NCBI GenBank assembly: GCA_013314755.1
Contig: JABUFA010000017.1
Coordinates: 1-64,000 of the forward strand
Source of the DNA: Chthonomonadia bacterium
Lineage (GTDB): Bacteria; Armatimonadota; HRBIN16
Length of the DNA: 64,000 bases
Direction of reading: 5' to 3'
Positions 2,969 to 5,360 of the stretch are shown here, piece by piece (position 1 is the first letter of the stretch; the number at the start of each line of letters is the position of its first letter). The notes under the pieces were generated by a model, which saw only the letters and a program-made list of their open reading frames with translations, had not been told where the DNA came from and ran no database searches. A program made the position numbers and the translations under genes.

Positions 2969-3856
2969 CTACCTCAACGCAGACAGCAGGCGCAGGTACG
3001 TCTTGAGGCGGAACGGATGATACCGCAGGCTTTCGCGAAATGCCTGACGTGCTTCCTGTTTCTGCCCGCGCATGGCGTAAAGCACTCCCAGCGCCGCCAT
3101 CGCCACGCCGATACTGCGCCGCATCCGCCCTCCGTCCCGCTTCAGCAGGTCGGGTATCCGTTTGCGGATGCGCTCTTCGTGGATCCACAGGTCATCCTCC
3201 AGCATTCGCTCGCGCTGGTACATGGTGTTCTGCCCATGCACTCGGTACAGCGTCAGCGGTTCAGGAACGTAGCCAATCGCATAGTGCTCGGCGATGCGAA
3301 GCCACAGGTCCCAGTCGCCCATGCCGAACAGGTGCTCCTCGAAGCGACCGCACCGCTCGATGCATTCCCGCCGAAACAGCACCGAAGAGGTGATAAACAG
3401 GTTGCGCGTCAACAGATCGGGCAGGAGGTCGCCCCGCGGGTTGGGGTGAAAGCGCACGCCCAGCGGGTTGCCCGCGATGGGGTTCCCTTCGGCGTCCACG
3501 AAGCGCACAGCGGTATGCACCAGCCCGACATGTGGGTCGCGTTCCAGTATCGCCGCCTGTCGTTCCAGTTTGGTGGGAAGCCACGCATCATCCGAGTTCA
3601 GGATGGCGATATACGGTGCGCCCGTCACTTCAATGCCCTCGTTGAGGCTGGCGTAAGTACCCCGGTTCTGCGAGTGAAGCACCACCTTCACGCGAGGCGC
3701 ATATTCCTGCAGGATAGCGGGCGAATCGTCCGCGCTGGCGTCGTCAATGGCGACTATCTCCATATCCTGCAGGCTCTGCGCCAGCACGCTCTCTACCGCC
3801 TGCCGAAGATAACGAGCATGGTTGTAGCTGGTGAGCACCACGCTCACAAGGGGCAT
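2969..3856 (-). CDS. Family 2 glycosyltransferase
   Basis: 295-residue GT-A fold enzyme transferring a sugar from a nucleotide donor to an unknown acceptor. It begins MPLVSVVLTSYNHARYLRQA, has the donor-binding IDDASADDS near residue 38 and the DXD-like NSDDAW near residue 90, and a C-terminal basic helical region. No transmembrane helix is evident. It starts two bases after the stop of the Clp_N-ornithine carbamoyltransferase gene, so the two are probably cotranscribed although no metabolic link is obvious. Confidence 0.9.
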   Translation of the reverse strand: MPLVSVVLTSYNHARYLRQAVESVLAQSLQDMEIVAIDDASADDSPAILQEYAPRVKVVLHSQNRGTYASLNEGIEVTGAPYIAILNSDDAWLPTKLERQAAILERDPHVGLVHTAVRFVDAEGNPIAGNPLGVRFHPNPRGDLLPDLLTRNLFITSSVLFRRECIERCGRFEEHLFGMGDWDLWLRIAEHYAIGYVPEPLTLYRVHGQNTMYQRERMLEDDLWIHEERIRKRIPDLLKRDGGRMRRSIGVAMAALGVLYAMRGQKQEARQAFRESLRYHPFRLKTYLRLLSALR

Positions 3857-3858
3857 CG

Positions 3859-5277
3859 TTACCAGTCCCCAATCAACGCGGCGAGCACCGCCTTCTGAGC
3901 GTGCAGACGGTTTTCCGCCTGGTCAAACACCACCGACTGCGTGCCATCTATCACCTCATCTGTGATTTCCTCGCCCCGGTGTGCGGGCAGGCAGTGCATG
4001 ACGATGGCGCCGGGTTTCGCCAGCTTCAGCAGGTCGGCGTTCACCTGATAGGGAGCGAACACCTGTTTGCGCTGTTCTGCCTCATGCTCCTGCCCCATGC
4101 TCGCCCACACATCGGTGTAGATGGCGTCGGCGGTGCGCACGGCTTCTCGCGGGTCGTGCGTGACGGTAATCAGCGAGCCGGTCTCGGTGGCAATCTCTCG
4201 GGCGCGGCTCAGTATCCCCTCGTGCGGCTCGTAGCCGGGCGGGCAGGCGATGGTGAAGTGCGTGCCCAGCTTCGCCGACAACAGTGCGAGGCTGTTCGCC
4301 ACGTTATTGCCGTCTCCCACGAACACCAGATGAAGCCCTTTCGGGTCGCCTTTGTGTTCCATCAGCGTCTGGAAGTCGGCTAACGCCTGGCAGGGGTGCT
4401 CGAGGTCGCTCAGGGCGTTAATCACGGGCACGCCGGCATGTTGCGCCAGCTCCACCAGCGTCTGGTGGGCGAACACGCGAGCCATGATTGCCTGGCACCA
4501 GCGTTCTAGGTTGCGCGCCACGTCCGCCACGCTCTCGCGCTTGCCCAGCCCGATTTCGTTTGGAGAGAGATAGATGGCGTGCCCGCCCATGTGCACCATC
4601 GCCGCCTCGAAGGTGAAGCGGGTGCGCAGAGAGGGCTTCTCGAAAATCATCGCCAGCAGGTGTGGACGCTTCCAGCGAATTAACTCCTGTCCGCTCTTTG
4701 TTGCCTCTTTCATCGCCGCCGCCGTCTGCAGAAGGGCGGAACACTGCTCCCGCGACAGGTCATCAATGCTCAGCAGGTCGCGCCCTTTCAAACCGCGCAG
4801 AACCTCCGCAGGAACGCTCTTCACCTGCGCTGAAGGGGTCTCGCCTTCCGACTGAACAGCTTTGACCACCGCGCGGGCTTGCTCCAGCTGGATGCCCTTT
4901 TTCACCAGTATCCTGCCCGCCAGCCCTTCCCCTTCCCGAATTAAGCCCAGCAAGAGGTGCTCTGTACCGACATGCTGGTTGCCCAGATGACGCGCCTCCT
5001 CGTACGCAAGGTCAATGGCGCGCTTGGTGCGGGGCGTCAGCTGGACCTCCTGCCCGACCGGACCTTCCCCTTTGGGTAACTGCCTCTCTATCTCCATCCG
5101 CAGCGAACCGGGATTAATTCCGAGGTTTTCCAACACCCGTATGGCGATACTGTCCGATTCGTGCAGAAGACCAAGCAGAAGATGCTCCGTGCCGACGACG
5201 TTTTCGCCCAGACGTCGCGCCTCTTCCTGTGCATAGTAAATGGCACGCCGCGCCTTTTCACTGAATCGTGTCCACAT
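3859..5277 (-). CDS. argF: Clp N-domain / ornithine carbamoyltransferase fusion
   Basis: 472-residue two-part protein in one unbroken frame. Residues 1-145 are a complete double Clp_N repeat as in ClpC/ClpA: GTEHLLLGLL at 29-38 and GTEHLLLGLI at 104-113, each preceded by an ARR-x5-AQEEARRLG-type helix. A short linker (146-163) leads to a full ornithine carbamoyltransferase, which condenses ornithine with carbamoyl phosphate to citrulline: SLRTR (216-220), HPCQ (294-297) and HCLPAHRGEE near 430. No ClpC ATPase module is present. The start MWTRFSEKARR matches the normal ClpC N-terminus and has GGAAGAGG upstream, so the fusion is not a start-site artefact. The role of the Clp_N part, which in ClpC binds adaptors and phospho-arginine substrates, is unknown here. 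Confidence 0.92.
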   Translation of the reverse strand: MWTRFSEKARRAIYYAQEEARRLGENVVGTEHLLLGLLHESDSIAIRVLENLGINPGSLRMEIERQLPKGEGPVGQEVQLTPRTKRAIDLAYEEARHLGNQHVGTEHLLLGLIREGEGLAGRILVKKGIQLEQARAVVKAVQSEGETPSAQVKSVPAEVLRGLKGRDLLSIDDLSREQCSALLQTAAAMKEATKSGQELIRWKRPHLLAMIFEKPSLRTRFTFEAAMVHMGGHAIYLSPNEIGLGKRESVADVARNLERWCQAIMARVFAHQTLVELAQHAGVPVINALSDLEHPCQALADFQTLMEHKGDPKGLHLVFVGDGNNVANSLALLSAKLGTHFTIACPPGYEPHEGILSRAREIATETGSLITVTHDPREAVRTADAIYTDVWASMGQEHEAEQRKQVFAPYQVNADLLKLAKPGAIVMHCLPAHRGEEITDEVIDGTQSVVFDQAENRLHAQKAVLAALIGDW

Positions 5278-5360
5278 ATCAACCTCTTCCCCCTCGCCCG
5301 AAGGATAGCTTATTGTAACGCATTTGCACACGTGGGCGCAAAGTGTGCCGGGCAGTGCCC

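Follow-up and report, generated by a model that had tools for sequence, protein, structure and literature searches.

The fused argF gene and its product

The window, a 64,000-nucleotide stretch of contig JABUFA010000017.1 from a Chthonomonadia bacterium (GCA_013314755.1), belongs to a hot-spring lineage of Armatimonadota. Its reverse strand carries an open frame at 3859-5331, in which 5277-3859 forms a single frame of 472 codons and a stop. The ATG at 5277 was chosen as the best start, and a Shine-Dalgarno-like AGAGG (5283-5287, reverse strand) lies five bases upstream of it. The encoded protein (3859-5277) consists of two Clp_N repeats followed by ornithine carbamoyltransferase (OTC). Pfam placed the repeats at residues 16-67 (5077-5232) and 91-140 (4858-5007), the carbamoyl-phosphate domain (OTCace_N) at residues 166-307 (4357-4782) and the ornithine-binding domain (OTCace) at residues 313-467 (3877-4341), all on the reverse strand and all far above the cut-off, including both repeats of the Clp_N (PF02861) duplex. 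The NCBIfam OTC equivalog TIGR00658 scored 405.6 bits (cut-off 280.85), and the translation and the OTC alignment showed the active-site motifs SLRTR, HPCQ, DVWASMG and HCLPAHRG. The AAA+ modules and M-domain of ClpC are lacking after the Clp_N repeats, with OTC in their place, and the protein is therefore not a ClpC unfoldase.

The AlphaFold model had a mean pLDDT of 89.5 and a pTM of 0.66, with two confident domains. They are separated by a linker (residues 145-160, 4798-4845, reverse strand), of which residues 145-154 are disordered (pLDDT below 50). The pTM value and the disordered linker are as expected for two independent domains in the predicted structure. The PDB matches were ClpC N-domains for residues 1-160 and OTCs for the remainder, the best of them the Pyrococcus furiosus enzyme (1a1s), to which the predicted OTC part aligned with a TM-score of 0.96. 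The fused protein thus resembles the anabolic OTC in its full catalytic domain and catalytic motifs, but differs from it in about 160 additional N-terminal residues that include the Clp_N module.

The possibility was considered that free OTC is translated from an internal start. Internal starts with ribosome-binding sites did not fall at one conserved place across the fusions, and the idea was rejected as a general feature. In the window gene, one internal TTG (residue 163) has a good match to a ribosome-binding site, so internal initiation of free OTC is possible there.

Genome setting and reality of the fusion

The genome of the window is 3.95 Mb in size and 98.7% complete. The fused gene encodes its sole OTC; no second argF was found in the genome. 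The other matches to the fused protein were ClpC, which is 64% identical over the N-domain (G000:C33), ClpB, and a carbamoyltransferase of 31% identity that was interpreted as PyrB. Intact ClpC and ClpB are encoded elsewhere, and Clp_N occurs in just three proteins of the genome. Because argG is present and the match to arginine deiminase is only weak and partial, the fused OTC is most likely anabolic. An arginine-gene operon was considered and rejected, since a glycosyltransferase-like gene (2969-3856, reverse strand, named by eye) and no arg genes follow the fused argF; this gene order is kept across the genus. Further along the same strand (2173-2945), a small nucleotidyltransferase-like frame (2173-2514) lies beside a HEPN-like frame and, by eye, resembles an MNT-HEPN pair.

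The original prediction that one frame joins Clp_N to a complete OTC holds: the frame is open, both sets of domains exceed their cut-offs and the active-site motifs are present. Instead of a second stand-alone argF and a locus without homologues in related genomes, the genome has one argF, and homologues of the fusion are abundant. Eight species of the genus showed the same layout in open frames, and their assemblies came from several independent projects. Every species of this genus whose locus is intact carries it; in the others the OTC gene is truncated at a contig edge or absent from the draft. The nearest named relative of the protein is that of Bacterium HR16 (HRbin16), 79% identical; full-length relatives further off are labelled Armatimonadetes or Armatimonadota, and several named relatives, judged by their names, are hot-spring metagenome bins.

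That the fused gene is an artefact of assembly or annotation, or a dead relic, might be argued from single frame lesions in a few draft genomes such as G033. However, the frames are open in many independent assemblies, ribosome-binding-like sites precede the fused start in most fusions and the gene is under purifying selection. Given its conservation across genus and phylum, an artefact was rejected, and the chance of such an explanation is considered negligible. In G033 (L133) the Clp_N part is spread over two frames, either a frameshift or an error of the draft assembly.

Distribution in Armatimonadota

A total of 291 Armatimonadota genomes were searched and 88 OTC loci were inspected, picked towards fusions rather than at random. 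OTC was fused in 35 of the 88 loci, and these came from ten families, designated here by anonymous labels (f1, f6, f7, f8, f12, f27, f32, f33, f34 and f35). Most fusions have two Clp_N repeats; there are four in f12, and in f27 five were scored and about six are visible by eye. The linker also varies among families and is lineage-specific. Two f7 genomes have an insert between Clp_N and OTC that looks like the N-terminal region of T2SSE, the ATPases of type II/IV secretion (PF00437 positions 3-113). The inserts are in L093:2697-4574 (reverse strand) and in L094, the fusion of G032, and one of these matches falls below the curated cut-off.

Unfused arrangements were also found. In f24, OTC is encoded directly downstream of a gene that has its own start and consists of Clp_N repeats only. 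An additional Clp_N gene lies directly upstream of the fused gene in f32, in G030 (f7) and in G209 (f27). In f35 and f8, close relatives without the fusion exist. Of 20 genomes scanned, most had Clp_N nowhere but in ClpC, ClpB and the OTC gene or the gene next to it. Clp_N-only genes were also seen just upstream of clpC in f9 (G054:C1:3140422-3140796 and G056:C573:5823-6200).

The fusion was not found in 400 genomes from the phylum of a Chloroflexi locus and 398 from that of a Clostridia locus (798 in all), at thresholds under which fusions with long linkers would be reported as OTC only. Whether the layout is confined to one clade had been posed as a check, and within the genomes searched it is confined to Armatimonadota. 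As had been supposed, the layout appears to be undescribed: a literature search, with most subscription journals outside its coverage, returned no paper on such a protein.

A different N-terminal fusion to OTC occurs in the same phylum. In four f16 genomes (G091, G100, G144 and G156; L096-L099) and in one of f6 (G023, L095), OTC follows a class-III aminotransferase resembling ArgD instead of Clp_N, a fusion of two steps of the arginine pathway. The f16 ArgD-ArgF protein is thus similar to the Clp_N fusion in the placement of its extra domain but not in the partner.

Origin and selection

By a quick method, the OTC tree agreed with the grouping of the genomes into families, and at least 12 changes in fusion state were needed on the best tree, five of them on well-supported branches. 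In the Clp_N tree, in which many forks were not separated, the fused modules did not form one group, and those of G032 and G034 were nested among the ClpC sequences of the family to which each belongs. The fused Clp_N of G032 is 96% identical to its own ClpC N-domain in amino acids and 93% in nucleotides. The 96% identity shows the fused module to be a copy of clpC sequence. Copying probably occurred more than once, as far as these trees and identities indicate, and their simplest reading is that clpC sequence was captured repeatedly or replaced the module by gene conversion.

Within the genus, the median dN/dS was 0.19 for Clp_N, 0.29 for the linker and 0.077 for OTC, with synonymous sites near saturation. 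The Clp_N module is under purifying selection. It evolves faster than OTC and much faster than the ClpC N-domain.

Phospho-arginine pocket residues

ClpC has two phospho-arginine pockets, whose key residues are E32 and E106; T7 is part of one of them, and the resting state is anchored by R9, K85 and R122 (PMC12583610). The numbering followed a reference Bacillus ClpC sequence and agreed with the match to 5hbn. The window gene has the equivalents of E32 at Glu31 (5185-5187, reverse strand; pArg2 pocket) and of E106 at Glu106 (4960-4962, reverse strand; pArg1 pocket), the pocket assignments being those of PMC12583610. Among 34 fused modules, E32 was present in 33, E106 in 32 and T7, as Thr or Ser, in all 34. 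K85, as Lys or Arg, was kept in 32, R9 in 15 and R122 in 16; in ClpC of the same phylum the counts were 31 of 31 for R9 and 29 of 31 for R122. When the 67 polar positions of the fusions were ranked by conservation, E32 was third, E106 fifth and T7 ninth, with R9 41st and R122 48th.

This pattern fits a module that has been freed from the ClpC ring yet, to judge from its residues, would retain the ligand pocket. The local ClpB N-domain also has E32, E106, T7 and K85, and the pocket residues are therefore not diagnostic of phospho-arginine binding. Compared with the N-domain of Bacillus ClpC (PDB 5hbn and 2y1q), the fused module shares the double Clp_N fold and the kept E32, E106 and T7, whereas the AAA+ and M-domains are missing and the self-inhibition contacts R9 and R122 are not conserved across fusions. 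Mycobacterial ClpC2 (PDB 9p2p and 8ad9) likewise has a ClpC-type N-domain outside the ClpC ATPase, although the fused module is less similar in sequence to ClpC2 than to ClpC. ClpC2 is not known to be fused to a metabolic enzyme.

Candidate partners

MecA had been named as a possible partner of the fused module. It was absent from all 291 Armatimonadota genomes, while the B. subtilis and L. lactis controls were matched, and docking to MecA was rejected. Of the earlier interpretation, the real fusion and the ClpC-type N-domain with conserved phospho-arginine pocket residues stand; MecA as partner is not supported, and docking to ClpC/ClpP, an arginine-related signal and control of turnover are candidate roles. 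Control searches with Clp_N and ATP-gua_Ptrans gave no match in Bacillus subtilis, which has ClpC and McsB, whereas the MecA control did; the positive matches reported here are independent of them.

McsB was found in 169 of the 291 genomes. By OTC state, it was present in 31 of 35 genomes with the fusion, 28 of 50 with unfused OTC and none of the three f24 genomes with the gene pair. The fusion genomes with no McsB match were G003, G019, G209 and G226, all drafts. The raw counts favour an association, but it was not significant after allowing for relatedness, with five independent pairs on well-supported branches, and co-occurrence was discarded as proof. In the genome of the window, McsA-like zinc motifs and an McsB-like kinase part are joined in one 489-residue frame (L172:3816-5285, reverse strand) directly upstream of clpC. 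The other members of the genus have frames of similar length.

In most of the phylum, fused or not, McsB has Ser or His, and in one case Asp, at the position of its active-site Cys, the residue in the genome of the window being Ser; LTASLxN appears in place of the Bacillus LTSCPTN (L112-L131, L172-L191 and L201-L220). The Cys is kept in f2, f3, f5 and f38, and the other McsB motifs checked are largely kept across the phylum. Because of the replacement, the kinase activity of McsB is uncertain. Loss of the Cys was also considered as a correlate of the fusion, but it is nearly phylum-wide and thus uninformative.

Proposed function

We propose, with a probability of roughly 0.4, that the fused Clp_N is a ClpC-type recognition module by which OTC is recruited to, or tuned by, the McsA/McsB-ClpC pathway; descent from clpC and the pocket residues are seen in the sequences, and binding is what we infer. 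The module would continue to bind ligands of the ClpC N-domain, either proteins that carry phospho-arginine or the McsA/McsB complex. OTC, probably a trimer, would display three double Clp_N modules and so be recruited to, or regulated by, McsA/McsB-ClpC quality control, with the outcome that arginine supply or OTC turnover would be linked to protein stress. The occurrence of the fusion in ten families with differing linkers and repeat numbers, its position as sole OTC in a genome with separate complete ClpC and ClpB, the Clp_N gene beside unfused argF in f24 and the additional Clp_N genes next to the fused argF of f32, f7 and f27 argue for the recognition module. So do purifying selection, the near-identity of the G032 module to its own ClpC, the kept pocket residues, the drift of R9 and R122, the McsB gene just ahead of clpC in the genome of the window, McsB in 31 of 35 fusion genomes and the absence of MecA. 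Against it are the presence of the pocket residues in ClpB, the non-significant McsB association, the lost McsB Cys, the fast evolution of the module and the failure to match McsB in four draft fusion genomes and in the f24 pair genomes. In a more far-reaching version, which we regard as doubtful, the module would be a reader of phospho-arginine or McsA/McsB copied from ClpC, such that protein arginine phosphorylation would directly control arginine production or OTC turnover, and this wiring would have arisen or been renewed several times in one phylum.

It is also conceivable, but in our estimate unlikely, that Clp_N serves as a structural or solubility domain, helping OTC to fold, assemble or withstand heat without any signalling. 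The faster evolution relative to OTC, the lineage-specific linkers, the close relatives in f35 and f8 that do without the module and the hot-spring names of several relatives are compatible with such a role. A mere spacer would not need E32, E106 and T7, which are nevertheless among the nine most conserved of the 67 polar positions, nor does this role agree with the separate gene beside argF in f24. Alternatively, OTC could be a decoy scaffold whose displayed Clp_N soaks up ClpC ligands and damps ClpC proteolysis. A decoy role has been proposed for mycobacterial ClpC2, and modules copied from ClpC, multiplied to at least four in f12, f24 and f27, with Clp_N-only genes adjoining argF in several families, would suit one here. 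However, a decoy could be attached to any enzyme, whereas the module goes with argF, and most of the 20 scanned genomes have Clp_N only in ClpC, ClpB and the OTC gene or neighbour; this explanation is rather improbable. It appears less probable still that the module is an allosteric sensor through which a small pathway compound, for example free arginine or a phosphorylated guanidine, feeds back on OTC. Attachment to an arginine-pathway enzyme and a pocket suited to a derivative of arginine are in its favour, but ClpC is not activated by unphosphorylated arginine (PMC12583610), and no direct sign of changed specificity was seen.

Work on the ClpC N-domain has treated it as a component of an unfoldase, and the literature searched contains no description of this domain on a metabolic enzyme. 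Natural fused and unfused pairs exist among close relatives. The recurrent, selected link of Clp_N with OTC suggests that arginine synthesis and ClpC-type quality control are connected at the level of regulation.
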